64,000 nucleotides of DNA from Rhabdothermincola sediminis (GTDB lineage Bacteria > Actinomycetota > Acidimicrobiia > Acidimicrobiales > Acidimicrobilacustridaceae), in contig NZ_JACFSZ010000002.1 in the NCBI RefSeq assembly GCF_014805525.1, positions 62,001 to 126,000 on the forward strand, in the 5' to 3' direction. Positions 9,048 to 63,572 of this stretch are shown here, in pieces. Both the position numbers and the translations under genes were made by a program. The stretch's first letter is position 1, and each line of letters begins with the position of its first letter. The notes below the pieces were generated by a model. That model was not told where the DNA came from. It worked only from the letters and a program-made list of their open reading frames with translations, and made no database searches.

Positions 9048-9062
9048 GTGACGGCCCGTCAG
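9048..9062. promoter_or_regulatory. CTGACG-type operator, copy 1
   Basis: GTGACGGCCCGTCAG: arms TGACGG/CCGTCA around one central base. It is the proximal of two sites before the FadE26/27-like pair and one of ten matches to CTGACGNNNCGTCAG in this window, all near gene starts. Binding is inferred. Confidence 0.75.
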
Positions 9063-9074
9063 GTTAGGCCAAAT

Positions 9075-9089
9075 GTGACGGGCCGTCAG
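9075..9089. promoter_or_regulatory. CTGACG-type operator, copy 2
   Basis: GTGACGGGCCGTCAG, with arms identical to copy 1 and a centre-to-centre spacing of 27 bp. This is the only promoter here with two boxes, which suggests cooperative or tighter repression of the dehydrogenase pair. Confidence 0.75.
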
Positions 9090-9103
9090 ATCTCCTCCCT
9101 TCC

Positions 9104-9151
9104 GAACTGTTCATCGATCCGCGGCCTCGGCCGCGCACACATGAACAGTTC
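9104..9151. repeat. REP-like nested inverted repeat, copy 1
   Basis: Outer arms GAACTGTTCA (9104-9113) and TGAACAGTTC (9142-9151) are perfect complements. An inner stem CGCGGCC/GGCCGCG sits in the middle. The element lies 11 nt past the stop of the racemase gene, between it and the dehydrogenase promoter. Three more copies with the same spacing occur in the window. Confidence 0.85.
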
Positions 9152-9162
9152 GTGGTAGTCGT

Positions 9163-10308
9163 TCACGCCACCGCACCCTGCTGACGGAGCACGGCGATGG
9201 CTTGTGGGTCGTAGCCCGCCTCGGCGAGCACCTCATCAGTGTGCTGACCCGCCGGTGCCGGCGGCCGGCCGAGCGAGGCCGGTGTGCGGTCGAAGCGCGG
9301 CGCGGGCGCGGGTTGCACGATGCCCTCGACGTCGACGTAGGTGGACCGGGCCCGCAGGTGCGGGTGCCGCGGTGCCTCGGCGAACGTGAGCACCGGGGCG
9401 ACGCACGCATCCAGCTCGGCGAAGACCTCCATCCACTCGTCCCGGGTGCGGGTGCGGAACACGGCGGCGAACCGCTCCTTCATCGCCGGCCACTGGGACG
9501 CATCGTGCTGGTCGGGCAGGTCCTCATCCGCCAGGCCGAGCCCCCGGAGCAGGTTCGCGTAGAACGCCGGCTCGATGGCCCCGACCGACAACCAACCCCC
9601 GTCGGCGGTCTCGTAGACCTCGTAGTAGTGCGCTCCGGAGTCCAACCAGTTCGTCCCCCGCTCGGTGTTGAAGTACCCGAGCATGTAGGCGCTGGCGATC
9701 GGGGCGGCGAGCAGGGCCACGCCGTCGACCATCGCTGCGTCCACCACCTGACCCTCACCGGACGTCGCCCGCTCGACCAGGGCCGCACACACCCCGAGCG
9801 CGAGGAGCATGCCCCCGCCACCGAAGTCCGCCACCAGGTTCAACGGGGGCGTCGGTGGCTGCCCGCGCCGGCCGATGTGAGCCAGAGGGCCCGCCAGCCC
9901 CAGGTAGTTGAGGTCGTGCCCGGCCCGGTCGGCCAGCGGGCCATGCCGGCCCCACCCGGTCATGCGGGCGTACACCAGGCGCGGGTTGTCGGCGCGCAGG
10001 ACCTCCGGCCCCAAGCCCAACCGTTCCATGACCCCTGGCCGGAAGCCTTCGACGAGCACGTCCGCTGCACGGGCCAGCGTGCGCACGACCTCGACGCCCT
10101 CGGTGCGCTTGAGATCGACCGCGATCGAACGCCTCCCACGGGCGTAGACGTTGCCCTTGGCCGTCTCCGGGGACGCGCCGAGCACGTGGTCCGGGCGGTC
10201 CACGACCACCACGTCCGCGCCCAGGTCGGCGAGCACCATGGCCCCGAACGGCGCCGGCCCGAGGCCGGCGAGCTCGACGACCCGGATCCCCTCGAGTGGC
10301 CCGGCCAT
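9163..10308 (-). CDS. mcr: alpha-methylacyl-CoA racemase (family III CoA-transferase fold)
   Basis: A 381-residue protein of the CaiB/BaiF family. The three catalytic residues of the mycobacterial racemase MCR (His126, Asp156, Glu241) are all visible at a constant offset of five: His131 in AGHDLNYLG, Asp161 in VADFGGGGM and Glu246 in AIEPAFY. This separates it from formyl-CoA-type transferases, which use an Asp nucleophile. It should interconvert 2R and 2S alpha-methylacyl-CoA esters, a step needed before side-chain beta-oxidation of sterols or branched fatty acids. The start is the ATG of MAGPLEGIRV, preceded by GGGGGACG; longer upstream codons lack family sequence. Confidence 0.92.
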   Translation of the reverse strand: MAGPLEGIRVVELAGLGPAPFGAMVLADLGADVVVVDRPDHVLGASPETAKGNVYARGRRSIAVDLKRTEGVEVVRTLARAADVLVEGFRPGVMERLGLGPEVLRADNPRLVYARMTGWGRHGPLADRAGHDLNYLGLAGPLAHIGRRGQPPTPPLNLVADFGGGGMLLALGVCAALVERATSGEGQVVDAAMVDGVALLAAPIASAYMLGYFNTERGTNWLDSGAHYYEVYETADGGWLSVGAIEPAFYANLLRGLGLADEDLPDQHDASQWPAMKERFAAVFRTRTRDEWMEVFAELDACVAPVLTFAEAPRHPHLRARSTYVDVEGIVQPAPAPRFDRTPASLGRPPAPAGQHTDEVLAEAGYDPQAIAVLRQQGAVA

Positions 10309-10472: not shown

Positions 10473-11708
10473 GTGGAGCTCAGCGACGTCAACCTGCTCG
10501 ATCCCGACGTGTTCCGCGAGGGTCGGCACCACGAGATGTTCAAGGTCCTGCGCCGGGAGGACCCGGTCCACTTCCACCCCGAGCCTGACGGTCCCGGGTT
10601 CTGGTGCATCACCCGTCACGCCGACCTGATCACCGTCAACCGTGACTACGAGGCCTTCTCGTCGGCGGAGCAGGGCATCAGCATCCCCGACATCACCCCT
10701 GAGGGTGAGATGGTGCGGGAGATGATGCTCTACATGGACCCCCCGCGGCACACCCGGTACCGGCTCCTGGTCAACAAGGGGTTCACCCCCCGGATGATCG
10801 GGCTGCTCGAGACCGGTCTGCGCACCAAGGCCCGGCTCATCGTGGACAACGTCATCGAGCGCGGCGAGTGCGACTTCGTGACTGAACTGGCGGCGGAGCT
10901 GCCCCTCCAGGCCATCGCCGAGTTGATGGGCGTCCCCCAGGAGGACCGCCACAAGCTGTTCGAGTGGACGAACCGGATGATCGGCATCGACGACCCCGAG
11001 TTCGAAGGGGACCGCGAATCGGCCAGCGAGGCCGCCGCTGAGATCTACCTGTACGCCAACACCCTCGCGGCGGAGAAGCGCAAGGACCCTCGCGACGACA
11101 TCGTCTCCCGCCTGCTCGGAGCGGAGATCGACGGCGATCGGCTGAGCGAGACGGAGTTCGACATGTTCTTCATGCTGCTCGCCGTGGCCGGCAACGAGAC
11201 CACCCGCAACGCCACCTCGCACGGGATGAAGGCGTTGATGGACAACCCCGACCAGTTCGAGAAGCTGAAGGCCAACCCCGACCTGCTGCCCTCAGCCGTC
11301 GAGGAGATCGTGCGGTGGGCCACGCCGGTGCTGCACTTCCGCCGCACCGCCATGCGCGACTACGAGCTCGGCGGCAAGCTCATCCGCAAAGGCGACAAGG
11401 TCGTCATGTGGCACATCTCCGCCAACCGCGACGAGACGGTGTTCGAGGACCCGTTCCGCTTCGACATCGAACGCTCCCCCAACGACCACATCGGCTTCGG
11501 CGGCGGCGGCCCCCACTACTGCCTGGGAGCGAACCTGGCCCGCATGGAGCTGCGCATCATCTTCGAGGAGATCATCACCCGCATGCCCGACATCGAGCTG
11601 GCGGGCGAGCCCGAGTACCTCCGGTCGAACTTCATCGGAGGCATCAAGCACATGCCGGTGCGGTTCACACCGGGGCCGCGGCTGGAACCGGTCCCGGCCA
11701 CCGCCTGA
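10473..11708 (+). CDS. cytochrome P450, CYP125-like steroid side-chain hydroxylase
   Basis: A 411-residue P450 with I-helix AGNETT at 239-244, ExxR in EEIVRWATPV, and heme-binding FGGGGPHYC with the thiolate ligand Cys350, followed by LGANLARMEL. Long stretches (PLQAIAELMGVPQEDRHKLF, AVAGNETTRN, EIVRWATPV, GIKH near the end) agree with M. tuberculosis CYP125A1 as I remember it. CYP125 oxidises the sterol terminal methyl (C26/C27) to the carboxylate that starts side-chain removal. A KstR-like box directly upstream fits that role. CYP142 and CYP124 are close relatives and not excluded. A GTG start after AAGGGG was used. Confidence 0.88.
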   Translation: MELSDVNLLDPDVFREGRHHEMFKVLRREDPVHFHPEPDGPGFWCITRHADLITVNRDYEAFSSAEQGISIPDITPEGEMVREMMLYMDPPRHTRYRLLVNKGFTPRMIGLLETGLRTKARLIVDNVIERGECDFVTELAAELPLQAIAELMGVPQEDRHKLFEWTNRMIGIDDPEFEGDRESASEAAAEIYLYANTLAAEKRKDPRDDIVSRLLGAEIDGDRLSETEFDMFFMLLAVAGNETTRNATSHGMKALMDNPDQFEKLKANPDLLPSAVEEIVRWATPVLHFRRTAMRDYELGGKLIRKGDKVVMWHISANRDETVFEDPFRFDIERSPNDHIGFGGGGPHYCLGANLARMELRIIFEEIITRMPDIELAGEPEYLRSNFIGGIKHMPVRFTPGPRLEPVPATA

Positions 11709-19417: not shown

Positions 19418-20329
19418 TCAGTACCGCAAGCCCGGGGCTCGGCAGCCGAACACGTCGGCGTTCATGAGCGCGGTGAGCTCCGCCGGATCCCAGCGCTTGC
19501 CGGGCTTGCGGATCGAGTTGCCGTTGCTCCAGCCCTTCATGAGCACGATCTCGTCCTTGACCGCTCGGATCACCTGCCCGGTGACGTGTGCGGCCTGGTC
19601 GCTGGCCAGCCAGGCGACGAGCGGTGAGGACAGTGAGGGATCCATCGGGTCCCACTCGTCGAACTCGTCGGGCTCGCGAGCTTCGATGCCCGCGCCCGGG
19701 ATCGACGCCGCCATGCGGGTCGCACCCGCGGGACCGATGGCGTTGACGGTGATGCCCATCTTGAACACCTCCAGGCTCACCGTCTGGGTGAACGCCGCGA
19801 TCCCCGCCTTGGCCGCGGTGTAGTTGGCCTGGCCGAAGTTGCCGACCAGCCCCGCGCCACTGGTGGTGTTGATGATGCGGCCGGTGCTCACGTCTTCGCC
19901 CGCCTTGCTCAGGCGCCGCCAGTGGTTCACCGCGTGGTGGGTCGGCGCGAAGGTGCCCTTGAGGTGAACCCGGATGACCTTGTCCCAGTCCTCCTCGGTC
20001 ATGCTCCAGATGGTGGCGTCGCGAGCGATGCCGGCGTTGTTGACCAGGATGTCGAGCCGGCCGAACACCTCGACGGCCTGCTGGATCATCCGGCCCGCCC
20101 CGTCGAAGTCGGCCACGTCCTCGTAGTTGGCGACGGCCTTGCCGCCACGTTCCTCGATGAGCTTCACGGTCAGGTCCGCGTCGCGGCCCGCACCCTCACC
20201 CTTGAGCGAAGCCCCCAGGTCGTTGACCACCACGAGGGCCCCCTCCTTCGCCAGCTCCAGCGCGTGCCCTCGACCGATGCCGTGGCCCGCGCCGGTGACG
20301 ATCGCAACCCTGCCGTCGAGCAGTCCCAT
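19418..20329 (-). CDS. SDR-family hydroxyacyl-CoA/hydroxysteroid dehydrogenase, MFE-2 type
   Basis: A 303-residue SDR with TGAGHGIG at 12-19, then VVNDLGA (the loop typical of peroxisomal multifunctional enzyme 2 dehydrogenase domains), NNAG, Ser in NTTSGAGLVG and the catalytic YTAAK. Enzymes of this subgroup oxidise 3-hydroxyacyl-CoA thioesters, including steroid side chains, or 17-hydroxysteroids. A close paralogue lies at 42381-43292. A CTGACG-type operator is centred 32 nt upstream of the ATG. The downstream ThDP-like gene appears to be co-transcribed. Confidence 0.88.
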   Translation of the reverse strand: MGLLDGRVAIVTGAGHGIGRGHALELAKEGALVVVNDLGASLKGEGAGRDADLTVKLIEERGGKAVANYEDVADFDGAGRMIQQAVEVFGRLDILVNNAGIARDATIWSMTEEDWDKVIRVHLKGTFAPTHHAVNHWRRLSKAGEDVSTGRIINTTSGAGLVGNFGQANYTAAKAGIAAFTQTVSLEVFKMGITVNAIGPAGATRMAASIPGAGIEAREPDEFDEWDPMDPSLSSPLVAWLASDQAAHVTGQVIRAVKDEIVLMKGWSNGNSIRKPGKRWDPAELTALMNADVFGCRAPGLRY

Positions 20330-20353: not shown

Positions 20354-20368
20354 CTGATGAGTCGTCAG
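20354..20368. promoter_or_regulatory. CTGACG-type operator, copy 3
   Basis: CTGATGAGTCGTCAG, one mismatch between arms. It is 25 nt upstream of the SDR ATG and 131 nt upstream of the divergent His-rich membrane protein gene, so it could act on both. Confidence 0.75.
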
Positions 20369-20499: not shown

Positions 20500-22119
20500 A
20501 TGGCCGCCACGGTCGAGGCCACGCCATCACCCGAGCACCAGGCCGCGGTGGCCTACAGCCTCCCGGCACGCTCCGTGCTCGCCGTCCTCTCCCTGTGCGC
20601 GGGCGTCGTGCACCTGGTGATGGTGCCCCAGCACGCCCAGCAGGGAGCGCTCGAGGGATGGGCCTTCGCCATCATGGGCTGGCTGCAGGTGCTGGCCGCG
20701 GTGGCACTGATCGCCCGGCCGAGCCGCCACCTGCTGCAGGCGGTGATCGTGGTGAACCTCGCGATCATCGGCCTGTGGGCCTGGAGCCGCACCACCGGGT
20801 TGCCGGTCGGGGCGCACGCGGGCGAACCCGAAGAGGCCCGCACCGTCGACCAGCTCACCACCGCATTCGAGGCTCTGCTGGTGCTGGGCTCCGGCGCGCT
20901 GCTCTGGCGCCCGCGACTCGGGGCGAAGCTCACCGACGCCACCCTCGCCGTGGCCTCGATCGTGCCCGTCCTGGCGATCGTCGCCACCTCGTTCGCGCTG
21001 GCCGATCCGGAGACCGCCAACCACGTCCACGCGGACGGCGAGGCGGCCGCCGGCCACGTCCACGGCTCCGGGGTGGCCCACGATGCGCAGATGGCCTCGA
21101 TCGCCGCCAACCGTTGCGACCTGGACATCAACCCGGCGTCCTACTGGCAGGAGACCACCGTCGCGGGCATCGACAACATCATGGGTGGCGCCCACCTCAC
21201 CGACGACCACTCGTCGACCACCCCGACCCCGGTGGCGATCGAGGGCTCGCCGGAGCTCGACCGCCTCATCGCCAAGACCACCCAGCCCGGAGGTGAGGTC
21301 AAGGATTCGGCGGTCATCGTGGCCCTCGCCGAGGTCAGCGACGAGGTGTACACGGAGTGGCTCCGGTGGTTGCCGCAGTACTCGGGCAGCGGGGCGCACG
21401 CCCACGGGACGGGGGGTAGCGGTGACGACAACCACGGCATGGGAGGCCACCTCGGCCCCCAACCGTGGATCGCCATGACCGACCAGGCGCAGTGCGATCA
21501 GCTCAAGGCCGAGCTCGAGATCGCCCGCCAGACCGCGCTGCGCTACCCCACCGCCGCCGATGCGATGGCGGCTGGCTGGGTAAAGGTCACCCCCTACCTC
21601 CCCGGCATCGCCGCCCACTACATGAACTTCCGCTACGTGGACGACAGGTTCGAGATCGACAAGCCCGAGATGATCCTCTACGACGGCGACGGCCCGGACG
21701 CCTCCGTGGTGGGGCTCTCCTACTACATCCTCCACGACAGCGAGGTGGAGCCCACCCAGGGCTTCACCGGCCCCAACGACCACTTCCACCGCCATGTCGG
21801 TCTGTGCGTGGGTGCCCGGGGGGTCATCGGCGACTCCACCACCACCCCCGAGGAGTGCGCGGCGATGGGTGGTCGCAAGGCCGACGGGACGGCAGGGTGG
21901 ATGAACCACGTGTGGATCGTGCCGGGCTGCGAGAGCCCGTGGGGCATGTTCTCGGGCGCGACCCCGCTGTTGGATCGGACCATGGGCCAGCGCTCGGGCA
22001 CGGACGGCGGTGGGTGTGCCGGCAGTGGGGTGCGGGACCGCTACGACCTGACCCCCGGCTCGCAGACGAACACCCCCACCACGGTCTGGGGCGGCAGCGA
22101 AGCCGCGGCCGGCGGCTGA
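20500..22119 (+). CDS. membrane protein with histidine-rich extracytoplasmic domain, unknown function
   Basis: A 539-residue protein I do not recognise. Five hydrophobic helices occupy about 25-165. A long soluble region follows with three His clusters: HVHADGEAAAGHVHG, HAHGTGG with nearby DDNHGMGGH, and DHFHRHVG near a run YILHDSEVEPTQGF. The pattern suggests binding of a transition metal at the outer face of the membrane. Conserved-looking Cys residues (NRCDLDI, CVGARG, EECAAMGG, PGCESPWG, GGGCAGSG) could form disulfides. The gene stands alone, divergent from an SDR, with GGGGGAAG as ribosome-binding site. Metal sensing, storage or a metalloenzyme are possibilities. Confidence 0.75.
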   Translation: MAATVEATPSPEHQAAVAYSLPARSVLAVLSLCAGVVHLVMVPQHAQQGALEGWAFAIMGWLQVLAAVALIARPSRHLLQAVIVVNLAIIGLWAWSRTTGLPVGAHAGEPEEARTVDQLTTAFEALLVLGSGALLWRPRLGAKLTDATLAVASIVPVLAIVATSFALADPETANHVHADGEAAAGHVHGSGVAHDAQMASIAANRCDLDINPASYWQETTVAGIDNIMGGAHLTDDHSSTTPTPVAIEGSPELDRLIAKTTQPGGEVKDSAVIVALAEVSDEVYTEWLRWLPQYSGSGAHAHGTGGSGDDNHGMGGHLGPQPWIAMTDQAQCDQLKAELEIARQTALRYPTAADAMAAGWVKVTPYLPGIAAHYMNFRYVDDRFEIDKPEMILYDGDGPDASVVGLSYYILHDSEVEPTQGFTGPNDHFHRHVGLCVGARGVIGDSTTTPEECAAMGGRKADGTAGWMNHVWIVPGCESPWGMFSGATPLLDRTMGQRSGTDGGGCAGSGVRDRYDLTPGSQTNTPTTVWGGSEAAAGG

Positions 22120-49631: not shown

Positions 49632-49634
49632 CGC

Positions 49635-53409: not shown

Positions 53410-54492
53410 TCAGCCCGTCAGCGTGGCGAGGACCCGGCCGGCCTCGGCCATGATGCGCTCGATCAACTCGGCCACCGAGGGCAGGTCCTCGATCACGCCG
53501 ATGCCCTGCCCGGTGGGCAGGATCCCCACCTCAGGGCGCCCGTCCACCAGGGTGGCCCTGATCAGCATGGGCGCGTTGGCGGCCATGACGAGCTGGCTCC
53601 AGGTGAGATCCTGGTTGCGCTTCATCGCCAGGCCCTCTCGGAGCAGGTCCCGGTAGCTCGTCCGGGTGAGCCTGCGGAAGGCGAGCGCGTTGCGCACCGC
53701 CCTGGGGAGACGGGTGAGCACTGACGAGCGCTCGAGCTCGTCGACCACCTCGGTGCGGATCACCCGCTGCGGGTACCCGTCGATGGCCTTGGTGACCACG
53801 GTGTCGTTGACGGTCTTGCTCAGGTAGATCTGCTTGATGAGCTCGGGCACCGTGGACTCACGGGTGAGCAGGAAGCGAGTGCCCATCGCGATGCCGTCGG
53901 CGCCCCACGCCAGCGCAGCTACCAGCCCTCGCCCGTCGGTGAAGCCACCGGCGCCGAGCACCGGGATGTCCACGGCATCGACCACCTGGGGCAGCAGCAG
54001 CGAGGTCGGCACCGAGCCCGTATGCCCGCCTCCCTCGGCGCCCTGGGCGATGACGGCGTCCACGCCCCACTCCGCCACCTTCTCCGCGTGCCGCCTGGCC
54101 CCGACGGTCGGCATGGTGACCACGCCTGCATCCTTGAGCCGGGCGATGGTCTCCCGCCGGGGAGCCTGGGCGAAGGAGGCCACCCGGACCCCCTCGCGGA
54201 TGAGCAGGGTGATCCGATCGTCGATGTCGGGCTGGTCGGCGCGCAGGTTCACGCCGAAGGGGTTGTCCGTGCGCGCCTTGACCTCCCGGATGGCTCGCTC
54301 GAGCTCGGCACAGGTCATGGTGGCCGAGGCGATGATGCCCAGACCGCCGGCCGCACTGGTCGCTGCAGTGAGCCGCGCCCCGGCCACCCACCCCATGCCG
54401 GTCTGCACGATCGGGTAGCGCACGCCGAACAGCTCGCAGGCGCGGGTGTGCAGCGCTCGCCGACCCGGCGGCGGGCCGGCCGAGGCCGACAT
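53410..54492 (-). CDS. ipdC: IpdC, flavin-dependent oxidoreductase (nitronate-monooxygenase-like fold)
   Basis: A 360-residue TIM-barrel flavoprotein: VQTGMGWVAGARLTAATSAAG at the N-terminus, then a second block IASATMTCAELERAIREVK, GGHTGSVPTSLLLPQVVDAV and GADGIAMGTRFLLTRES. Resembles mycobacterial IpdC closely from memory. IpdC acts in the C/D-ring stage of cholesterol degradation, at the level of the ring-opened CoA intermediates. Its ATG overlaps the ipdB stop by one base (TGATG), the last gene of the four-gene operon echA20, ipdA, ipdB, ipdC. Confidence 0.92.
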   Translation of the reverse strand: MSASAGPPPGRRALHTRACELFGVRYPIVQTGMGWVAGARLTAATSAAGGLGIIASATMTCAELERAIREVKARTDNPFGVNLRADQPDIDDRITLLIREGVRVASFAQAPRRETIARLKDAGVVTMPTVGARRHAEKVAEWGVDAVIAQGAEGGGHTGSVPTSLLLPQVVDAVDIPVLGAGGFTDGRGLVAALAWGADGIAMGTRFLLTRESTVPELIKQIYLSKTVNDTVVTKAIDGYPQRVIRTEVVDELERSSVLTRLPRAVRNALAFRRLTRTSYRDLLREGLAMKRNQDLTWSQLVMAANAPMLIRATLVDGRPEVGILPTGQGIGVIEDLPSVAELIERIMAEAGRVLATLTG

Positions 54493-55301
54493 CAGTTCTT
54501 GACCTCGGTCGTGCGCAGCCCTGCAGGATCGATGACATCGCGGATCAACCTCAACTCCTCCATGGTGGGGAGCCGGGTCTCGTCGAGGTCCTCGGCGACC
54601 GCGAGCTCGAAGCCCGTCGCCTCCTGGACCTCCTCGAGCGACACGCCCGGGTGCACGCTGCGCACCCGCATGCGATGGTCGGGAGTCTCGAAGTCGAACA
54701 CGCCGAGGTTCGAGACCACCCGGCGGATCTCGTGGAACCGCGCCGCCCGCGGGCCCAGCGCGGCGGCCCGGTCGTAGCCCACCCCGCTCACCACGTCGAC
54801 CTTCTCGACGAAGGATTTCGGGTTGTGGTTCGGTACCCAGTAGCTCGTGGTGTGGTTGATCGTGTTACCCGGCGCGCCCCGGAAGCCCAGCAGCTGGGCT
54901 CGGGGGCGATGCCAGTCACCGATACAGGCGATGTTCTGGTTGCCGTAGCGGTCGATCTGACTCGCTCCCATCATCACGTGGCGCTTGCCGTTCCACAGCA
55001 CGGTGAACATCTGCGGGTAGGGGTTCCAGCTCTCGACCACCTCGTCGAGCTCCAGCCTGCCGTCGACGTTGCGGTAGGGGTTCACGCCGGGAGGCAGGCA
55101 CGAGGAGGTGAACATGGCGAAGCCGTCGGTCATCACCAGCGAGGGTTCGAAGGTCTCCCGGGCCAGGCGACCGCCGATCATGGGGATGGTGCCGATGGGG
55201 TTGCAGAGCCGCTCACCATCGCCGCGGAAGCATTCGGCCACCGCGACCACGCACACCTCGGCCCTGGTCGCCCCCGGGACCGCTTCGACCGACCCACCCA
55301 T
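54492..55301 (-). CDS. ipdB: IpdB, CoA-transferase-family subunit (steroid ring hydrolase)
   Basis: A 269-residue beta-type subunit of the family I CoA-transferase fold: CVVAVAECFRGDGERLCNPIGTIPMIGGRLA, then WNGKRHVMMGASQIDRYGNQNI and VVSNLGVFDFETPDHRM. With IpdA it forms the enzyme that hydrolyses the last ring of the steroid (COCHEA-CoA) in mycobacteria, rather than transferring CoA. Overlaps both neighbours by one base. A longer frame upstream is a shadow of ipdA. Confidence 0.93.
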   Translation of the reverse strand: MGGSVEAVPGATRAEVCVVAVAECFRGDGERLCNPIGTIPMIGGRLARETFEPSLVMTDGFAMFTSSCLPPGVNPYRNVDGRLELDEVVESWNPYPQMFTVLWNGKRHVMMGASQIDRYGNQNIACIGDWHRPRAQLLGFRGAPGNTINHTTSYWVPNHNPKSFVEKVDVVSGVGYDRAAALGPRAARFHEIRRVVSNLGVFDFETPDHRMRVRSVHPGVSLEEVQEATGFELAVAEDLDETRLPTMEELRLIRDVIDPAGLRTTEVKN

Positions 55302-56167
55302 CAGCCCTGCCTCCTCGCCGCCAGCGCCTTCTGGTACTCGACCTCCGACTCGAACTCGAGCCACTCCCGGGCGAACGCCGACCAGGTCTCCTCTGAGGAC
55401 GCCGCCGCCACGTACTGCTTCTGGAACGCCTCGTCGCGTCCGTAGTCGGGTGGGCACTCGGTGAAGTGCGCCCCGTTGGGCGCCTCGACGACGCCGTCGA
55501 CGTTCAGTCGGCTGATGCGCAGCGTGTGGAACGACCCGAACCGGGCGAAGTCCTCGGTGGGCACCACCTGCTCGCAGGACAGGAACGTGCGATCCGCAGC
55601 CAGGCTGAACCAGTCATCCATGTACAGGTCCGGTCCGAGGAACTGCCCGTTGCCGGCCTGGTCGGCCCGGTTCATGTGGATGAGCGCCACGTCGAGCTGG
55701 ATCGCCGGCATGGCCACCAGCTCCTCGCCGTCCTCGTAGGGCGAGCGGACCGTGCGGATCTCGGGCATCGCCGTGAGCAGGTCCGATCCCAGGCCGGCCC
55801 GGGTGGGGAGGAAGGGAACCCGCCAGGCCGCGGCCTGCAGGCCGAGCAGCAACATGCCCTCGTCCAGCTCCATGGCCTCCAAGGCTCCCGCCTGGCGGGC
55901 AGCGCGGAAGTGCGGCTCCAGGGGGATCGAGTCCAGGGAGACGAATCCGTAGATCGCCTTGCGGACCTTGCCGGCGGCGCAGAGCAGGCCGATGTCCGGG
56001 CCGCCGTAGCTCACCACCGTGAGGTCTCGCAACGGCGAGCGCAGGATCGCCCGCACCAATGACATCGGCTTGCGGCGGGACCCCCAGCCGCCGATGCCGA
56101 TCGTCATGCCGTCACGGAGCTCGGCGATCACGTCTTCTTCGGTCATGCGCTTGTCGGGCAGCGCCAT
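55301..56167 (-). CDS. ipdA: IpdA, CoA-transferase-family subunit (steroid ring hydrolase)
   Basis: A 288-residue alpha-type subunit: TIGIGGWGSRRKPMSLVRAI, VSYGGPDIGLLCAAGKVRKA, FVSLDSIPLEPHF, an acidic block MELDEGML (99-106) near the catalytic Glu105 region of M. tuberculosis IpdA, and EAPNGAHFTECPPDYGRDEAFQ. Forms the active complex with IpdB. Its ATG lies 8 nt after the echA20 stop. Length matches the mycobacterial protein (about 290). Confidence 0.94.
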   Translation of the reverse strand: MALPDKRMTEEDVIAELRDGMTIGIGGWGSRRKPMSLVRAILRSPLRDLTVVSYGGPDIGLLCAAGKVRKAIYGFVSLDSIPLEPHFRAARQAGALEAMELDEGMLLLGLQAAAWRVPFLPTRAGLGSDLLTAMPEIRTVRSPYEDGEELVAMPAIQLDVALIHMNRADQAGNGQFLGPDLYMDDWFSLAADRTFLSCEQVVPTEDFARFGSFHTLRISRLNVDGVVEAPNGAHFTECPPDYGRDEAFQKQYVAAASSEETWSAFAREWLEFESEVEYQKALAARRQG

Positions 56168-56175
56168 CAGCACTC

Positions 56176-56934
56176 CTACTTGGTGAAGTCGGCGTCGCGC
56201 CCCTCGACGAACGCGTCGCGCGCCTCGTCGGCCACGCCCGACAGGTTCAGCTCGAAGGTGAAGCCCTGCTCGAAGCGGTAGCTGCGCTTCACGTCCCACA
56301 GGTCGATGCCGTTCAACGACTCCTTGGCCGCCCGGATGACCGTCGGGCTCTTCGTGGCGATCTGGCGGGCCACCTCGATCGCCGCCGGGCGGAGCTCCTC
56401 CCGCTCGACCACCTGTAGCACCGATCCGAACTGGTGCAGCTCCTGGGCCGTGGCGGTGGTGGCCGTGTAGACCATGGCTCGCATCTTGTGCTGGGGCACC
56501 AGCCGGGCCAGGTGGGTCGCCGCACCGAGCGCCCCCCGATCGACCTCGGGGAGGCCGAAGTACGCGTCCCTGGACGCCACCACGATGTCGGCATTGCCCA
56601 CCAGGCCGATGCCTCCGCCCAGGCAGTAGCCGTGCACCGCCGCGATCACGGGCACCGCGCACTCGTACACAGCGGCGAAGGCCGCGAAGCAGCCGCGGTT
56701 GGCGCCGATGAGGGCGTCGAAGCCCTCGGTGGCCTGCATCTCCTTGATGTCCACCCCGGCGTTGAAGCCCTTGCCCTCGGCCCGCAGGATCACGGCCCGC
56801 ACACTGCGGTCCTCACCCAGCCCGCGCACGATGTCGGCCAGCTCGAACCAGCCGGCGACCGTCAGCGCGTTCACCGGTGGGTGCTCCATGACCACTTCCG
56901 CGATGCCGTCCTCGATCGACGATGTGATGCCCAT
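56176..56934 (-). CDS. echA20: EchA20, enoyl-CoA hydratase-family ring-D hydrolase
   Basis: A 252-residue crotonase-fold enzyme. Conserved blocks agree with mycobacterial EchA20 from memory: PPVNALTVAGWFELADIV, AEGKGFNAGVDIKEMQATEG, YECAVPVIAAVHGYCLGGGIG, GLPEVDRGALGAATHLARLVP, and EQGFTFELNLSGVADEARDAF. EchA20 opens ring D of the HIP-CoA-derived intermediate before IpdAB. The ATG giving MGITSS matches the known N-terminus and has GGATGGAG before it. It heads the operon and has a CTGACG-type operator 32 nt upstream. Confidence 0.95.
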   Translation of the reverse strand: MGITSSIEDGIAEVVMEHPPVNALTVAGWFELADIVRGLGEDRSVRAVILRAEGKGFNAGVDIKEMQATEGFDALIGANRGCFAAFAAVYECAVPVIAAVHGYCLGGGIGLVGNADIVVASRDAYFGLPEVDRGALGAATHLARLVPQHKMRAMVYTATTATAQELHQFGSVLQVVEREELRPAAIEVARQIATKSPTVIRAAKESLNGIDLWDVKRSYRFEQGFTFELNLSGVADEARDAFVEGRDADFTK

Positions 56935-56965: not shown

Positions 56966-56980
56966 CTGATGGGGCGTCAG
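56966..56980. promoter_or_regulatory. CTGACG-type operator, copy 8
   Basis: CTGATGGGGCGTCAG, between divergent echA20 (32 nt) and the SDR (60 nt). In mycobacteria the corresponding operon is controlled by KstR2 through a different palindrome. Confidence 0.75.
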
Positions 56981-57039: not shown

Positions 57040-57867
57040 ATGGCCGGCGCACTCGGAAACCCCCTGGATCTCAGTGGCTCCGTCGTCCTCGTCACCGGCG
57101 GCACCAAAGGGGTCGGTCGAGGCATCGCCGCCCGCTTCCTCCAGGCGGGCGCCGCAGTGGTGGTCTCGGCCCGCAACGAGCCCGAGAGTCCGGTGGCTGT
57201 CGAGCGCGATCATGCGGCCTTCGTGGCCGCCGATGTGCGCGACCCCGAACAGGCTGCCGCCATCGTGGCGTTCGCGGTGGAACGCTTCGGCCGGCTCGAC
57301 GTGGTGGTGAACAACGCCGGGGGCTCGCCGCGGGCGGACGCCGCGCACGCCTCGCCTCGATTCTCCGAGTCGATCGTCCGGTTGAACCTGCTGGCCCCGC
57401 TGCACGTTGCCCAGGCCGCCAACGCCGTGATGCAGGAACAGGAGAGCGGGGGGTCCATCATCAACATCGCCAGCGTCAGCGCGCTCCGCCCCTCGCCCGG
57501 CACCGCCGCCTACGGCGCGGCCAAGGCCGGCTTGTTGAGCCTCACGACGACACTGGCGGTCGAGTGGGCACCGAAGGTGCGGGTCAATGCGGTCACGCCC
57601 GGCTACATCGAGACCGAACAGGCCCACCTGCACTACGGCGATACCGATGGGGTGGCGGCGGTGGCCGACACCATCCCCCTGCGGCGTATGGGCACACCTG
57701 TGGACGTGGGCGATGCCTGCCTGTACCTCGCCTCCTCGCTCGCCGGCTACGTCAGCGGCGCCAACCTGGTGGTGCACGGTGGCGGCGAACGACCGCTCTT
57801 CCTCTCGGCTGCCAACGCCGACGCGACCAGCGTGACCGGCGCATCACCGTCCCCGGGAGACGGGTAG
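57040..57867 (+). CDS. short-chain dehydrogenase/reductase divergent from echA20
   Basis: A 275-residue SDR: TGGTKGVG, VSARNEP, NNAGGSPRAD, NIASVSALRPSP and the catalytic YGAAK, with an unusual long C-terminal tail (FLSAANADATSVTGASPSPGDG). An SDR (Rv3549c) also stands divergent to echA20 in M. tuberculosis, so this position is conserved and a role in ring C/D breakdown is likely. The ATG is preceded by CGGAGGAG. It is followed after 9 nt by a TPR-like gene on the same strand. Confidence 0.88.
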   Translation: MAGALGNPLDLSGSVVLVTGGTKGVGRGIAARFLQAGAAVVVSARNEPESPVAVERDHAAFVAADVRDPEQAAAIVAFAVERFGRLDVVVNNAGGSPRADAAHASPRFSESIVRLNLLAPLHVAQAANAVMQEQESGGSIINIASVSALRPSPGTAAYGAAKAGLLSLTTTLAVEWAPKVRVNAVTPGYIETEQAHLHYGDTDGVAAVADTIPLRRMGTPVDVGDACLYLASSLAGYVSGANLVVHGGGERPLFLSAANADATSVTGASPSPGDG

Positions 57868-57876: not shown

Positions 57877-58944
57877 ATGCTGATCGCGGGGCGCACCTAC
57901 CGTGACCTGCGGGCCGCGTTCGGGCGAGGTGCCTACGACCAGATCGTCCGCGAAGGCCCGGCGGTCGCGGCTACCCTCGAGGCCGACGCCACCCAGCAGG
58001 AGCTGGTGCCGGCAACGGCCCTGCTCGTGGGCGCCGCGCTGGCCGAGCAGGAGCTCTACACCGACGCCATCGCCTGGCTCGAGTACGGCTTGGCCCGGCT
58101 GCCCGGCACGGCGTCGGTCGCCGAGGTCGCCGGCGGCCACTGGCACCACCGGCTCCTCGCGGACCTGTATCTGCTGACCGGACGCTGGGACTCGGCATCC
58201 GTCTACCTGGATTGGTTGGCCCGCCCCGAGCAGCCGCTCGACAGCCGGCTGGCCGCCACCCGAGGACAGGCCATGCTGGCCGCGGCACGCGGGCGCTTCG
58301 ACGACGCGCACCTGCTCGTGAACGCCGCGGCCGACCTGGCCCGGCGAGCACACAGCAGTGCCCTGGCAGCGATGGTGGAAGCCGACCGAGCGCTCGTCGT
58401 CGCCGCACAGGGCCGGCTGCTCGAAGCCGTCGGATTCACCGAGGAGGTGGCGCCCCGTCTCGCCGCGCCCGGCCGGGGACCCGAGCAGCGTTGGGCGAAC
58501 GCGGTGGCGGCCGCGCTCCTGACCACGATGGCCCGGCTGCTCGCGGCGGGCGGCGACCTCATGACCGCCATGCGCTACCTCGTCGAGGCCGGCGTCCCCG
58601 TGGTGGCCACCGGACGGTCGTACTGGTCGGCGCAGCTCGACCTGGCCCGCGGGGTGGTGTGGCGGGAGGAAGGCGAGGCCGAGCGCGCCGAGCCCGCCGC
58701 CATCCGGGCCGTGCAGGAGCTCGACCGGCTCGGTGCACGTCCTGCCGCGGCGGTGGCCCGGCTCGAGGAAGCCCGGCTCGCGGAGGCACGCGGCCACGTG
58801 CTCTCCGCCCGGCGGCTCTACGAACGCGCCTGGCGCGAGTGCGCGGCACTCGGCTTGTCCCGGGAGACGAGCGGGATCCGTGCCCGACTGGCGACCCTCG
58901 GCCAGGAAACTGACGAGTCGTCAGAATCCGGGGCGGTCGAGTAG
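57877..58944 (+). CDS. TPR-like alpha-helical repeat protein
   Basis: A 355-residue protein, almost wholly alpha-helical and Ala/Leu/Arg-rich, with recurring tetratricopeptide-like helix pairs (YTDAIAWLEYGLARLPG, LADLYLLTGRWDSASVYLDWL, MLAAARGRFDDAHLLVNAAADLARRA, RLLEAVGFTEEVAPRL). No enzymatic motif, signal peptide or membrane helix. It could be a scaffold for the pathway or a sensor. Its last codons contain the CTGACG-type operator of the next gene. Transcription probably starts with the upstream SDR. Confidence 0.72.
   Translation: MLIAGRTYRDLRAAFGRGAYDQIVREGPAVAATLEADATQQELVPATALLVGAALAEQELYTDAIAWLEYGLARLPGTASVAEVAGGHWHHRLLADLYLLTGRWDSASVYLDWLARPEQPLDSRLAATRGQAMLAAARGRFDDAHLLVNAAADLARRAHSSALAAMVEADRALVVAAQGRLLEAVGFTEEVAPRLAAPGRGPEQRWANAVAAALLTTMARLLAAGGDLMTAMRYLVEAGVPVVATGRSYWSAQLDLARGVVWREEGEAERAEPAAIRAVQELDRLGARPAAAVARLEEARLAEARGHVLSARRLYERAWRECAALGLSRETSGIRARLATLGQETDESSESGAVE
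58910..58924. promoter_or_regulatory. CTGACG-type operator, copy 9, inside a coding region
   Basis: CTGACGAGTCGTCAG, identical to copy 7, located within the last codons of the TPR-like gene and 31 nt before the DUF35 start. The embedding implies an internal promoter for the DUF35-thiolase pair. Confidence 0.8.
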
Positions 58945-58955: not shown

Positions 58956-59405
58956 GTGAGCAACAAGACCCGAGTGCCCGCGGTCGAGGGCTGGTTCACC
59001 ACCGATCCTGATCGTCCCGCCCTGCTCGGCACCCGCTGCGCGACCTGTGGCACCTACTCGTTCCCCCGCGAGACCAGCTTCTGCAAGAACCCCGACTGCA
59101 CGGGGCGCGACTTCGAAGAGGTCGAGCTCAGCCGGAGGGGCAGCATCTGGTCGTACACCAATGCGTGCTACCAGCCCCCGCCGCCTTACGTGCCCACCAC
59201 CGACCCGTTCGAGCCTTTCTCGCTCGCCGCGGTGGAGCTGGCCGAGGAGAAGATGGTGGTGCTGGGACAACTCGTCCCGGAGGTCCGGCTGGAGGACCTC
59301 GCCGTCGGCACCGAGGTGGAACTGGTGATCGACACGCTGTTCGAGGACGACGAGCACGAATACCTGGTCTGGAAGTGGCGTCCGGTGACCGAGGGGGCCC
59401 GCTGA
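58956..59405 (+). CDS. DUF35-family zinc-ribbon OB-fold protein
   Basis: A 149-residue acyl-CoA-binding partner protein. The N-terminal rubredoxin-like zinc ribbon uses CATCGTYSFPRETSFC and NPDC (four cysteines in CxxC and CxxxxC pairs), followed by an OB-fold (RRGSIWSYTNACYQPPPPYV). DUF35 proteins partner thiolase-like lipid transfer proteins in steroid side-chain retro-aldol and related reactions (ChsH2/Ltp2-like systems). Its TGA overlaps the thiolase ATG (TGATG), strongly suggesting a complex. GTG start. Confidence 0.87.
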   Translation: MSNKTRVPAVEGWFTTDPDRPALLGTRCATCGTYSFPRETSFCKNPDCTGRDFEEVELSRRGSIWSYTNACYQPPPPYVPTTDPFEPFSLAAVELAEEKMVVLGQLVPEVRLEDLAVGTEVELVIDTLFEDDEHEYLVWKWRPVTEGAR

Positions 59406-60592
59406 TGACAGGGGAGGTGGCCGTCCTCGGCGTGGGCATGCACCCGTGGGGCAAGTGGGGCCGCAACTTCGTCGAGTACGGGGTGCACGCCGCCCAGGCC
59501 GCGCTCGCCGACGCCAGCCTGAGCTGGCGGGACGTGCAGTACGTGGCCGGGGCCGACACCATCCGCAACGGCTATCCCGGCTTCATCGCCGGGGCGACCT
59601 TCAGCCAGGCCCTCGGCTGGAAGGGCAACCGGGTGGCGAGCTGCTACGCGGCGTGCGCGTCGGGTGCCCAGGCACTGAACGTGGCCCGGGCCCAGATCCT
59701 CGCCGGGTTCTGCGACGTGGCCCTCGTGGTGGGCGCCGACACCACGCCCAAGGGCTTCTTCGCGCCGGTGGGCGGCGAACGCCAGGACGACCCGGACTGG
59801 CTGCGCTTCCGCCTCCTCGGCGCCACCAACCCCACCTACTTCGCGCTCTACGCCCGTCGGCGCATGGAGCTCTACGGGGCGACGAGCGGAGACTTCGCCC
59901 GGGTGAAGGTGAAGAACGCGCGGCACGGCCTGTCAAACCCCTACGCCCGGTACCACAAGGAGGTGACCGTCGAGGAGGTCATGGCGTCCCCGGTGGTCGC
60001 CGATCCGCTCCGGCTCCTCGACATCTGCGCCACGAGCGACGGCGCAGCGGCCGTGGTGCTCACCAGCCTGGAGTTCGCACGCCGGCACACCACGAGCCCG
60101 GTGCGGATCGCGGCGGTCTCGACCGTCACCCCGACCTATCCTCAGACCATCATCGAGATGCCGAACTTCGCCACCGATTCCGCCGCGGTGGTCCCGCTGC
60201 CCGAACGCCACTTCCGCGACGCCATCGCCGCCGCGGCCTACGAGGAGGCGGGGCTCGGGCCCGACGACCTGGATCTGGCCGAGGTGTACGACCTGTCCAC
60301 CGCGCTCGAGCTCGACTGGTACGAGAACATCGGGCTCTGCAAGGAAGGGGAGGCGGAGCGGCTCCTCAACGACGGCGACACCACGATCGGCGGCCGGATA
60401 CCGGTGAACCCCAGTGGCGGCCTGGCCTGCTTCGGGGAGGCCATCCCCGCGCAGGCGCTGGCGCAGGTGTGCGAAGTCACCTGGCACCTGCGCGGCGAGG
60501 CCGGCGAACGCCAGGTCGACGGTGCCCGGGTCGGGCTGACCGTGAACCAGGGCCTGTTCGGGCACGGCAGCTCGGTGATCCTCAAGCGCTGA
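59405..60592 (+). CDS. thiolase-like lipid-transfer protein (Ltp family), partner of DUF35
   Basis: A 395-residue thiolase-fold protein: nucleophile-position Cys in SCYAACASGAQALNV, DICATSDGAAAVVLTS, and near the end NPSGGLACFGEAIPAQ where ordinary thiolases have GHPxGATG; the catalytic His is therefore missing. In mycobacterial Ltp2-like aldolases other residues do the chemistry, and DUF35 partners supply part of the active site. Retro-aldol cleavage or acyl transfer of a steroid-derived CoA ester is likely; the exact member (Ltp2, Ltp3 or Ltp4-like) is not decided. Confidence 0.85.
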   Translation: MTGEVAVLGVGMHPWGKWGRNFVEYGVHAAQAALADASLSWRDVQYVAGADTIRNGYPGFIAGATFSQALGWKGNRVASCYAACASGAQALNVARAQILAGFCDVALVVGADTTPKGFFAPVGGERQDDPDWLRFRLLGATNPTYFALYARRRMELYGATSGDFARVKVKNARHGLSNPYARYHKEVTVEEVMASPVVADPLRLLDICATSDGAAAVVLTSLEFARRHTTSPVRIAAVSTVTPTYPQTIIEMPNFATDSAAVVPLPERHFRDAIAAAAYEEAGLGPDDLDLAEVYDLSTALELDWYENIGLCKEGEAERLLNDGDTTIGGRIPVNPSGGLACFGEAIPAQALAQVCEVTWHLRGEAGERQVDGARVGLTVNQGLFGHGSSVILKR

Positions 60593-61529: not shown

Positions 61530-61566
61530 CCGCAGCGCAGCCTAGGACTCGCCTAGCGCCCGGGCC

Positions 61567-62349
61567 TCAGGGATGCTGGCTGCTGACCGACACCACCTCA
61601 CCGGTCATGTAGGAGGAGTAGTCACTCGCCAGGAACACCATCACGTTGGCGACCTCCCACGGCTCCGCACCGCGACCGAACGCTTCGCGGGCCGCGAGCT
61701 GCTCGAGCAGCTCCTCGGTCGTCACCTTGGCCAGGAACGGATGCATGGCCAGGCTGGGGGCGACCGCATTGATCCGCACCCCGGCGTGGGCCGCTTCCAG
61801 CGCCGCGCAGCGGGTGAGGGCCATGACCCCGGCCTTGGCGGCCGCGTAGTGTGCCTGGCCCTCCTGGGCCCGCCAGCCGACCACCGAGGCGTTGTTCACG
61901 ATGACCCCGCTCCCCCTCGGCATCATGTGGCGCATCGCGGCGCGGGTGGTGCGCATCGTCCCGTTGAGAGTGACGTCGAGCACCGAGAACCACTGCTCAT
62001 CGGTCATCTCGACGAGGTTGGCGGTACCACCGAGCCCCGCGTTGTTCATCATCACGTCGACGTGACCGAGCTCAGCCACCGCCACCTCGAACAGCCGCTG
62101 CACGTCTTGCTCGACGGCCACGTTGCACACCACGGTGGGAGGGACTTCGCCGCTGACCTCTCCCAACCGCTCGGCAGCCTCCGCCAACCGGCGCTCGTGG
62201 ATGTCACTGATGAGGACCCGGGCACCCTCCTCCGCACAGCGTTTGGCGACCGCGAACCCGATGCCGGTGCCAGCAGCCGCGGTCACCACTGCGGTCTTGC
62301 CGTCGAGCAGGCCGTGGGCAGGGACGTACGGTGGCGGGGACGAGGGCAC
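61567..62349 (-). CDS. ipdF: short-chain dehydrogenase, IpdF-like
   Basis: A 260-residue SDR with the distinctive coenzyme loop TAAAGTGIGFAVAKRCAEEGA and SDIHERR, as in mycobacterial IpdF, then NNAGLGG, NNASVVGWRAQ and the catalytic YAAAK. IpdF oxidises the 5-hydroxyl of the C/D-ring fragment. The C-terminus SSYMTGEVVSVSSQHP is shorter than most. It follows the acyl-CoA dehydrogenase by one base, the same neighbourhood as fadE30-ipdF in M. tuberculosis. GTG start. Confidence 0.78.
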   Translation of the reverse strand: MPSSPPPYVPAHGLLDGKTAVVTAAAGTGIGFAVAKRCAEEGARVLISDIHERRLAEAAERLGEVSGEVPPTVVCNVAVEQDVQRLFEVAVAELGHVDVMMNNAGLGGTANLVEMTDEQWFSVLDVTLNGTMRTTRAAMRHMMPRGSGVIVNNASVVGWRAQEGQAHYAAAKAGVMALTRCAALEAAHAGVRINAVAPSLAMHPFLAKVTTEELLEQLAAREAFGRGAEPWEVANVMVFLASDYSSYMTGEVVSVSSQHP

Positions 62350-62350
62350 C

Positions 62351-63538
62351 TCAGCCGTTCACCTTCGGTTCAGGCGGGAGCCCGAGGGCACGCTCGCCGA
62401 TGATGTTGCGCTGGATCTGGTTGGCGCCGCCGTAGATGGTGTCGGCCCGGCTGTAGAGGAAGAGCCGTTGCGCGGCCGTCGGCTCGAAGGGGGTGCTGGC
62501 CGCGATCATGGCCTCGGGACCGAGCACGTCCACCGCCAGCTCGCCGAGATCCCGGTGCAGGCTGGCCCAGTAGAGCTTGGAGATGTAGGCGGGGCCGCTC
62601 AGCTCGGGCCGGTCGGCCATGGTGAGCATGCGCAGGGTGTTGAGCCGCATGATCTCCAGCCGGCTCCACATCTCCGCCAGCCGTTGGCGGACCGCCGGAT
62701 CGCCGGCTCGACCGTTGCGCCGGCAGGCCTCGAGGACCTCGCGGTACTCCCGCATGAACGCGAACTGCTGGCCGAGCGTCGACGCCCCCCGCTCGAAGGC
62801 GAGGAGGCCCATCGCCACCTTCCAGCCGTTGTTCACCCCACCGACGACCAGATCGGCCGGCGTGGGGGTGTCCGAGAAGAAGACCTCGTTGAACTCCGAC
62901 GAGCCGGTGATCTGCACGATCGGGCGGATCTCGATGCCCGGGGCGTCCATGGGGACCAGGAGGAAGGAGATGCCCCGATGCTTCGGCGCGTCGCGATCGG
63001 TGCGGGCCAGCACGAAGCACCAGTGCGCCCAGGTGGCGAGCGAGGTCCACACCTTCTGACCGTTGATGACCCAGCGGTCGCCGTCGAGCTCGGCGCGGGT
63101 CTGGATGTTGGCGAGGTCCGATCCCGCGTTCGGCTCCGAGTAGCCCTGGCACCACAGCTCCTGGCCGAGGCGGATCGGGGGGAGGAAGCGTCGTTGCTGC
63201 TCGGGTGTGCCGAAGTGGATCAGCGTCGGCCCGATGAGTCCTTCCCCGATGTGCCCGAGCCGTCCGGGGCCGCCCGCCCGCGCGTACTCCTCGAAGTAGA
63301 TGACCTGCTGATGGAGTGGCAGGCCGCGGCCACCGAACTCGGCCGGCCAGCCGACGCAGGTCCAGCCATCGGCGCCCAGCCGCTGCTCCCAGGCCAGCCG
63401 CTCTTCGAAGCAGGAGTGCTCGTCGCCGGGCCCGCCGCGCCCGCGGATCTCGGCGAACTCCCCGTGGAGCAGGTCGTCGAGGTACGAGCGCACCTCCTTG
63501 CGGAACCGCTCCTGCTCTGGGGTGAAGCTGAGGTCCAT
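62351..63538 (-). CDS. fadE30: acyl-CoA dehydrogenase, FadE30-like
   Basis: A 395-residue acyl-CoA dehydrogenase. The C-terminal glutamate site reads YGGANQIQ, so the base is likely Glu249 in FERGAS, the same alternative position as in the other catalytic subunits here. Blocks QGYSEPNAGSDLANI and INGQKVWTSLA are intact. It has no partner subunit next to it, and with ipdF immediately downstream it matches FadE30, which introduces the double bond in HIP-CoA. A CTGACG-type operator lies 20 nt upstream of the ATG. Confidence 0.8.
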   Translation of the reverse strand: MDLSFTPEQERFRKEVRSYLDDLLHGEFAEIRGRGGPGDEHSCFEERLAWEQRLGADGWTCVGWPAEFGGRGLPLHQQVIYFEEYARAGGPGRLGHIGEGLIGPTLIHFGTPEQQRRFLPPIRLGQELWCQGYSEPNAGSDLANIQTRAELDGDRWVINGQKVWTSLATWAHWCFVLARTDRDAPKHRGISFLLVPMDAPGIEIRPIVQITGSSEFNEVFFSDTPTPADLVVGGVNNGWKVAMGLLAFERGASTLGQQFAFMREYREVLEACRRNGRAGDPAVRQRLAEMWSRLEIMRLNTLRMLTMADRPELSGPAYISKLYWASLHRDLGELAVDVLGPEAMIAASTPFEPTAAQRLFLYSRADTIYGGANQIQRNIIGERALGLPPEPKVNG

Positions 63539-63557
63539 GGCAGCGCCGAGCCTACCT

Positions 63558-63572
63558 CTGACGACCCGTCAG
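63558..63572. promoter_or_regulatory. CTGACG-type operator, copy 10
   Basis: CTGACGACCCGTCAG, perfect six-base arms, 20 nt before the fadE30-like ATG. Also about 120 nt from the 3' end of the next gene, so only fadE30-ipdF is a sensible target. Confidence 0.8.

Follow-up and report, generated by a model that had tools for sequence, protein, structure and literature searches.

A palindrome before HIP and other catabolic genes of Rhabdothermincola sediminis: candidate operator of a TetR_C_38 regulator

A palindrome upstream of catabolic genes

The stretch of DNA analysed here, a 64-kb window of the Rhabdothermincola sediminis genome, carries genes for the last steroid rings (the catabolism of 3aα-H-4α(3'-propanoate)-7aβ-methylhexahydro-1,5-indanedione, HIP), further catabolic genes and a tetR gene. 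A preliminary description of the window had picked out ten 15-bp copies of a palindrome, CTGACGN3CGTCAG, and proposed that they define a regulon of steroid genes under this TetR protein; its ten coordinates are all right. The features are listed below, the candidate operators without a strand and followed by their predicted targets.

37207–37896, minus strand: TetR-family regulator (TetR_N and TetR_C_38 domains, EthR-like fold; start GTG 37896 or ATG 37887), proposed from its sequence as the repressor
37919–37933: operator, exact, 31 bp before tetR and 87 bp before the lipoprotein gene 38021 (plus strand)
9048–9062: operator, one mismatch, first of a tandem pair, before an acyl-CoA dehydrogenase pair
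9075–9089: operator, one mismatch, second of the tandem pair, before the same acyl-CoA dehydrogenase pair
6707–9003, minus strand: target, two acyl-CoA dehydrogenase genes (7834–9003 and 6707–7825; NCBIfam/Pfam matches)
20354–20368: operator, one mismatch, 24 bp before the short-chain dehydrogenase/reductase (SDR) gene 19418–20329 (minus strand)
19418–20329, minus strand: target, SDR oxidoreductase (NF005861 subfamily, 341 bits, under the cut-off of 373)
23762–23776: operator, one mismatch, 45 bp before an acyl-CoA ligase gene
22172–23716, minus strand: target, acyl-CoA ligase (family match)
43313–43327: operator, two mismatches, between SDR gene 42381 (minus strand) and luciferase-like monooxygenase (LLM) oxidoreductase gene 43357 (plus strand)
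42381–43385, minus strand: target, SDR oxidoreductase (PRK07791 subfamily, over cut-off; real start probably near 43286)
43357–44196, plus strand: target, F420-dependent LLM oxidoreductase (TIGR03619, over cut-off)
50823–50837: operator, exact, 21 bp to the FadE31-like gene and 51 bp to amidohydrolase gene 50889 (plus strand)
47420–50801, minus strand: target, operon of FadE31-like (49635–50801), FadE32/IpdE2-like (48564–49631) and FadA6 (47420–48577/48664) genes
50889–52088, plus strand: target, Amidohydro_2 protein (Pfam)
56966–56980: operator, one mismatch, 31 bp to echA20 and 59 bp to SDR gene 57040 (plus strand)
53410–56934, minus strand: target, operon of echA20 (56176–56934), ipdA (55301–56173), ipdB (54492–55301) and ipdC (53410–54492)
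57040–57867, plus strand: divergent target, SDR oxidoreductase (Pfam adh_short_C2)
58910–58924: operator, exact, 31 bp before a DUF35/ChsH2-type OB-fold gene
58956–60592, plus strand: target, ChsH2-type OB-fold protein (58956–59405) and lipid-transfer/thiolase Ltp (59405–60592)
63558–63572: operator, exact, 19 bp before the FadE30-like gene
61567–63538, minus strand: target, operon of FadE30-like acyl-CoA dehydrogenase (62351–63538) and IpdF (61567–62349)

Four of the ten sites (37919, 50823, 58910 and 63558) match CTGACGN3CGTCAG exactly, against 0.03 expected in the window, and none of 100 shuffled windows held four or more. With up to one mismatch there are nine matches against 0.45 expected, a number that again no shuffle out of 100 reached. 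The claim that all ten copies share the CTGACG/CGTCAG arms stands for the four exact copies and the five with one mismatch and is a little generous for 43313, which has two: at the two-mismatch level the whole window holds 12 matches against 8.3 expected, and 15 of 100 shuffles reach 12, which is not above chance. Site 43313 therefore owes its inclusion to position and conservation rather than to its sequence. With gene starts predicted by a purpose-built caller based on codon usage, a start lies 19–71 bp downstream of ten out of ten sites, in agreement with their description as standing before catabolic genes or tetR, and all seven copies of the degenerate form CTGAYGN3CRTCAG in the window lie within 100 bp upstream of a gene start or overlap one, a zone that makes up 10% of the sequence. 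The two operators at 9048–9089 form a tandem, 27 bp apart, before a single acyl-CoA dehydrogenase pair; comparable pairs are found 41 bp apart in genome G180 (C20:48036 and 48077) and 66 bp apart in Actinomadura loci.

Targets were named by NCBIfam, Pfam and PDB searches, with EchA20, FadA6, IpdF, one SDR and the Ltp thiolase over curated cut-offs, and FadE30, FadE31, FadE32 and IpdC named by family and neighbourhood. The echA20-ipdABC operon is the module for HIP ring C/D opening: EchA20 exceeds the cut-off of model NF005925, IpdA and IpdB find their best PDB matches in the CoA-transferase subunit entries 6con/6co6, and IpdC is FabK-like, under cut-off. FadA6 (PRK07801, 716 bits), IpdF (PRK07831, 440 bits) and Ltp (PRK06059, 738 bits) score over their cut-offs; for the FadE32/IpdE2-like gene the IpdE2 model scores best, yet under cut-off, and the product of 58956–59405 matches Pfam zf-ChsH2/OB_ChsH2_C. 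As to the placement of single sites, 58910 falls inside the 3' end of a predicted open reading frame (57877–58944, plus strand), and 43313, 29 bp before the LLM gene, is upstream of SDR gene 42381 only if the latter starts near 43286, where its family match begins (residue 34 of 334). The position of operator 37919 makes autoregulation of tetR probable.

Sites and regulator in this and related genomes

A whole-genome scan, which the preliminary description had named as a check, carried the pattern well past the window. In the 3.29-Mb genome (49 contigs), CTGAYGN3CRTCAG has 14 exact matches, seven of them in the window, and the other seven all stand at catabolic genes: they precede sucC, an acyl-CoA dehydrogenase gene in a CoA-transferase cluster, and genes for a CoA-transferase III, a FadD4-like ligase, an aldehyde dehydrogenase, FadD3 and an amidohydrolase. 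Six of these seven lie within 100 bp upstream of a start or overlap it (the FadD4-like ligase being the overlap) and the aldehyde dehydrogenase site lies at 106 bp, against a background of 10%. FadD3 (NF005801, 782 bits, cut-off 657) begins HIP catabolism in mycobacteria, according to PMC5380842; its gene, which encodes the HIP-CoA synthetase missing from the window, bears a site, and the palindrome therefore ties a distant gene to the right pathway. The gene for succinyl-CoA ligase beta, sucC, has an operator upstream both here (L051:3997) and in genome G140 (L169; 81% identical), apparently linking an enzyme of the tricarboxylic acid cycle to the regulon. Judged by these sites, the predicted regulon is wider than the steroid ring genes and reaches beyond the window. 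Allowing one mismatch to the degenerate pattern raises the count from the 14 exact matches to 40 places in all, where a reversed control has 16, and a good part of the one-mismatch places is therefore chance. The 26 inexact places include three of the window sites already described; among ten others inspected, several are promoter-proximal at P450, LLM and acyl-CoA dehydrogenase genes and others look like chance. No target was assigned to the places beside an SBP_bac_5 gene, beside an SRP54-domain gene and within a gene (L063–L065).

The link to the TetR protein at 37207 is borne out by its distribution over 198 genomes of the order, in which a match at E<=1e-20 defined TetR-positive (54 genomes) and TetR-negative (144). 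The sites, their positions, their conservation and their co-occurrence with this TetR are computed directly: the 54 positive genomes hold 326 exact sites and the 144 negative ones 44, at least one exact site is present in 50/54 against 33/144 genomes, and a reversed-pattern control gives 8 and 24 sites, respectively. EchA20 over cut-off follows the same division, with 48/54 against 22/144 genomes. Upstream of echA20, for which 30 of the 70 loci over cut-off were taken, a good site (at least 10 of 12 arm letters) is present in 19/23 TetR-positive and 1/7 TetR-negative loci (Fisher p 0.002, to be read as a guide); one negative locus had only 55 bp upstream, and excluding it gives 1/6 and p 0.005. 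A good site also lies beside tetR, from 180 bp upstream to 30 bp inside the match, in 12 of 30 tetR loci, as compared with 176 of 4000 random 195-bp stretches (4.4%).

Conservation extends to the individual targets. Every exact site of G002 (19 sites) and G140 (16 sites), genomes from two other families, was inspected, and 17/19 and 14/16 have a start within 100 bp against a background of 8–10%. Many stand before the closest relatives (51–81% identity) of fadD3, fadE30, fadE31, SDR, DUF35, sucC, CoA-transferase and amidohydrolase genes; others have no relative in the compared part of the source genome. Both genomes carry sites before the closest relatives of the FadE31-like gene and amidohydrolase gene 50889, of the DUF35 gene and of the FadE30-like gene. 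In G002, a site precedes a 57% identical relative of acyl-CoA ligase 22172–23716, and an exact one precedes an SDR gene whose product is 74% identical to window SDR 42381–43385; the closest relatives of SDR 19418–20329 in G140 and G192 are likewise preceded by sites.

Pooling 84 distinct sites from TetR-positive and TetR-negative genomes, with repeated contexts and sites less than 200 bp from a locus end left out, extends the operator from the 15 bp first described, whose palindromic core is real, to 19 bp: ATCTGACGN3CGTCAGAT. A start lies within 100 bp of 66/84 pooled sites, against 9.7% of the sequence. Among 50 single-target sites read in the direction of the gene, 18 are preceded by the −10-like hexamer TANNNT, which starts 8–3 bases ahead of the palindrome; read in the opposite direction, none of the 50 is. 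Related promoters are part of this count, which makes its P value optimistic. With TANNNT just before it, the operator would therefore sit over the −10/+1 region there, and such an overlap is the classical location for a repressor.

The regulator and its relatives EthR, KstR2 and KstR

The regulator belongs to the TetR family by its domains, with PF00440 at 27.7 bits and PF19352 (TetR_C_38) at 149.4 bits, both over cut-off, and PF19352 was found in a single copy in the genome. On sequence evidence, a palindromic operator at promoters with its own gene among the targets would also be typical of the family. The helix-turn-helix (HTH) stretch TSPATFYQYF is invariant in 17 orthologues. An AlphaFold2 model is all-helical with a mean pLDDT of 90, and its best match is EthR both by sequence (phmmer 1.7e-07) and by fold (Foldseek; TM-score about 0.85 by target length). 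EthR is thus closest in sequence and fold, without being an orthologue: identity is 21% over the fold, and the phmmer alignment covers only residues 5–132 of 229. EthR acts on ethA from an extended operator to which several dimers bind, whereas the window regulator appears to use short palindromes, alone or in pairs, spread over a large catabolic regulon. The genes beside tetR belong to LLM, lipoprotein and hydrolase families by profile matches, no search having been aimed at an ethA-type Baeyer-Villiger monooxygenase. Weaker fold matches are the acyl-CoA-responsive TetR repressors FadR of Bacillus and Thermus, FasR and DesT, several with bound acyl-CoA, which suggests the effector class; their operators and regulons differ from those here. 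AccR/AcrT of Streptomyces and Saccharopolyspora was set aside as a known relative, in a comparison on the AcrT motif only: that motif, as given in PMC8546615, is unlike this palindrome.

Which protein, then, stands where mycobacteria have KstR2? The KstR2 regulon of mycobacteria and Rhodococcus, as described in PMC5380842 and PMC3068626, is alike in having a TetR-type regulator, a palindrome 20–80 bp before most starts, divergent promoters and control of its own gene, and in its core targets echA20-ipdABC, fadE30-ipdF, fadE31/32, fadA6 and fadD3. It differs in its operator, AnCAAGnnCTTGnT there (PMC3068626) and CTGACGN3CGTCAG here, in the regulator, which here is TetR_C_38/EthR-like, in the number of sites (three there, about 20 here, with the genes here on several contigs) and in the extra targets found here, namely LLM, amidohydrolase and CoA-transferase genes and sucC. 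With candidate operators before the HIP genes echA20-ipdABC, fadE31/32-fadA6, fadE30-ipdF and fadD3, the window regulator would have a KstR2-like role.

KstR2 itself was rejected as the regulator: there is no near-perfect box in the window, no protein match among the candidates scored in the genome, an alignment confined to the HTH region, and poor boxes upstream of echA20. The box AnCAAGnnCTTGnT with at most one mismatch is absent from the 64 kb; with two mismatches it occurs 27 times against 7 expected, three of these within 100 bp upstream of a start and none of the three at a target of the ten sites. Upstream of the 30 echA20 loci the box is never better than 7/10 letters, so that KstR2 operators were found at HIP promoters neither in the window nor at those loci. 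A KstR2 protein query gave no match at E<=1e-10 in the genome, with 16 of 43 first-look candidates scored. These searches uphold the earlier suggestion that the HIP pathway is wired to a site other than that of KstR2. PF17932 (TetR_C_24), which we take to be a possible KstR2 domain, has four matches in the genome, two over cut-off.

The sequence TnnAACnnGTTnnA, presumably the KstR consensus, is the basis for our label KstR-type boxes. In the form TNGAACNNGTTCNA such boxes occur ten times in the genome against once for the reversed control, and three of them (TAGAACNNGTTCTA; C3:210710, C3:218609 and C4:226251; L327, L328 and L330) lie 10–31 bp before genes or two-gene runs that include a KshA-type oxygenase. 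This resembles the KstR regulon of the upper steroid pathway, whose operator differs from CTGACGN3CGTCAG. The upper steps seem, by these boxes, to keep KstR-type wiring, and the lower (HIP) steps to use another switch. With no KstR2 match among the genome's scored candidates and no near-perfect KstR2 box in the window, and with KstR-type boxes at KshA-type genes, the HIP pathway therefore seems rewired to the TetR_C_38 regulator of EthR fold. Within the window, KstR-type boxes with up to one mismatch number 12 against 2.6 expected, and a second, KstR-like regulon therefore seems interleaved with the first. Three of the window boxes, TAGAACACGTTCTA (40977–40990), GAGAACGCGTTCTA (34003–34016) and TGAAACAGGTTCTA (29236–29249), lie 20–24 bp upstream of LLM-like, EthD-domain and amidohydrolase genes.

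Proposed repression and its reach beyond steroid catabolism

We consider it highly probable, on sequence evidence, that the TetR_C_38 regulator at 37207–37896 has the palindrome as its operator; it would repress HIP and wider catabolic genes in KstR2's stead and be released by a catabolite. We infer the physical binding, the sign of control and the effector as follows: a TetR dimer would bind the 19-bp ATCTGACGN3CGTCAGAT, which in many promoters would lie directly downstream of the −10 element and over the transcription start, and so block initiation by promoter occlusion. About twenty promoters would be repressed in this way, those of tetR itself, echA20-ipdABC, fadE31/32-fadA6, fadE30-ipdF and fadD3 as well as those of the wider acyl-CoA, LLM, amidohydrolase, SDR and CoA-transferase genes and sucC. 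The catabolite that releases the repressor would most likely be one of the acyl-CoA intermediates formed in these pathways. The regulator would thereby do KstR2's mycobacterial job with a different TetR subfamily and operator, the upper pathway keeping its KstR-type boxes.

Several results weigh against this proposal. Four of the 54 TetR-positive genomes have no exact site and the TetR-negative G077 has six; 4/23 TetR-positive echA20 loci lack a good site, as do the surroundings of tetR in 18/30 tetR loci. The genomes are related and their counts not independent, which makes the P values guides only; the KstR2 protein search of the genome scored no more than 16/43 candidates; and isolated sites in the Streptomyces-like genome G220 are poorly placed, one of six inspected lying within 100 bp of a downstream start. 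Co-occurrence was computed for this TetR alone, and another regulator of equal distribution may exist. An unlikely alternative is accordingly that the operator is real and bound by such a regulator, with tetR 37207 merely one target: tetR carries its site as any target would, most tetR loci in the count just given have no good one beside the gene, and there are many other TetR-like candidates, a TetR query yielding 43 at first look in the source genome. The tight co-occurrence with this TetR over 198 genomes, the renewed appearance of sites near tetR in Actinomadura, Streptomyces and other families, and a recognition-helix stretch as invariant as the operator speak for the window protein instead.

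Far less probable is that the TetR is a plain KstR2 orthologue with a drifted binding site. Protein type, core targets and site-to-start distances are similar, the KstR2 motif lying 22–82 bp before most starts in PMC3068626, which also gives more than 50% identity among actinomycete orthologues. However, only the HTH region of the window TetR aligns with KstR2 (21/58, or 36% over 58 residues; E 3e-6 for one comparison), a search of the source genome with KstR2 fails to recover the TetR at E<=1e-10, and the 50 Foldseek matches listed start with EthR and include no KstR2 entry. Moreover, KstR2 matches at E<=1e-35 occur in 5/198 genomes, and the two TetR-positive ones among them, G095 and G143, hold this TetR together with a separate, 38% identical KstR2-like protein. 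The remaining reading, that the palindromes are chance or a structural repeat (bidirectional terminators or a mobile repeat) and no operator, was already disfavoured and is just as improbable: two-mismatch copies in the window are no commoner than chance predicts and some one-mismatch places in the genome look random (near the SRP54-domain gene, inside a gene), but the palindrome is common to sites whose flanks mostly differ, and it stands just upstream of starts here and likewise in other families.

Repression by the TetR_C_38 regulator may extend well beyond the order. Among the best 80 of 574 relatives, the TetR is found in records of Acidimicrobiales, Microthrix/Aquihabitans, Actinomadura, Frankia and Streptomyces, and phylum-wide in 26 of 396 genomes at E<=1e-25. 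A sample of 15 genomes from the phylum-wide search comprised 12 TetR-positive ones, in which the degenerate pattern occurs 1–28 times, and three TetR-negative ones, in which it occurs 0–2 times. In Streptomyces, an identical CTGATGTACCGTCAG lies 0.9–2.7 kb beyond tetR in 25 of 41 loci (among the same best 80 relatives), and in one of them (L239) it stands four bases before the start of a gene whose product, read by eye, looks thiolase-like. G220 has seven sites in 68 kb around tetR (C1:3902000-3970000; L313–L316), adjoining relatives of FadD3, FadE30-like, amidohydrolase, LLM and ligase proteins; no gene of this 68-kb cluster has EchA20 or IpdAB as its best match. The name 'repressor of steroid genes' is therefore too narrow. 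According to PMC4810484, the cholesterol pathway occurs in only one of over 50 Streptomyces; the regulator is therefore probably older and wider than steroid catabolism.

We give an even chance to the idea that the TetR_C_38 regulator of EthR fold is ancient and acts, through ATCTGACGN3CGTCAGAT, as master repressor of a catabolic network common to actinobacteria (acyl-CoA ligases, LLM-F420 enzymes, amidohydrolases, SDRs and Ltp/DUF35 thiolases). On this view the network would have captured the steroid C/D-ring genes of Acidimicrobiia-type lineages in place of KstR2, KstR keeping the upper pathway, and in Streptomyces the regulator would govern a conserved cluster that lacks echA20/ipdAB. TetR repressors that act at palindromic operators are familiar. 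No account of HIP genes wired to this regulator and operator was seen among the papers listed in the literature searches, with thin coverage of subscription journals; those listings likewise showed no description of an operator of this sequence, in keeping with the preliminary description, of a regulator under the accession PF19352, of a Streptomyces regulator with these genes or of KstR or steroid control in Acidimicrobi- taxa. Descriptions of how actinobacteria regulate the breakdown of the last steroid rings have so far invoked KstR2. Here, in a group represented largely by metagenome-assembled genomes, the enzymes persist and another switch appears to have taken KstR2's place. The operator provides a sequence handle that predicts network membership for unassigned LLM oxidoreductases, amidohydrolases, CoA-transferases and sucC, and draws attention to the Streptomyces cluster that surrounds this regulator in tractable strains.

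Three further features of the window deserve mention. The P450 at 10473–11708 (plus strand) has CYP125 enzymes (steroid C26-monooxygenase) as its best solved matches and is preceded by none of the ten sites. The reading frame 20500–22119 (plus strand; 539 residues), 131 bp from operator 20354, has no NCBIfam (1e-10) or Pfam match. Finally, genes for an HTH-PBP regulator and a molybdate-type ABC transporter lie amid the catabolic genes at 44255–47410 (plus strand).

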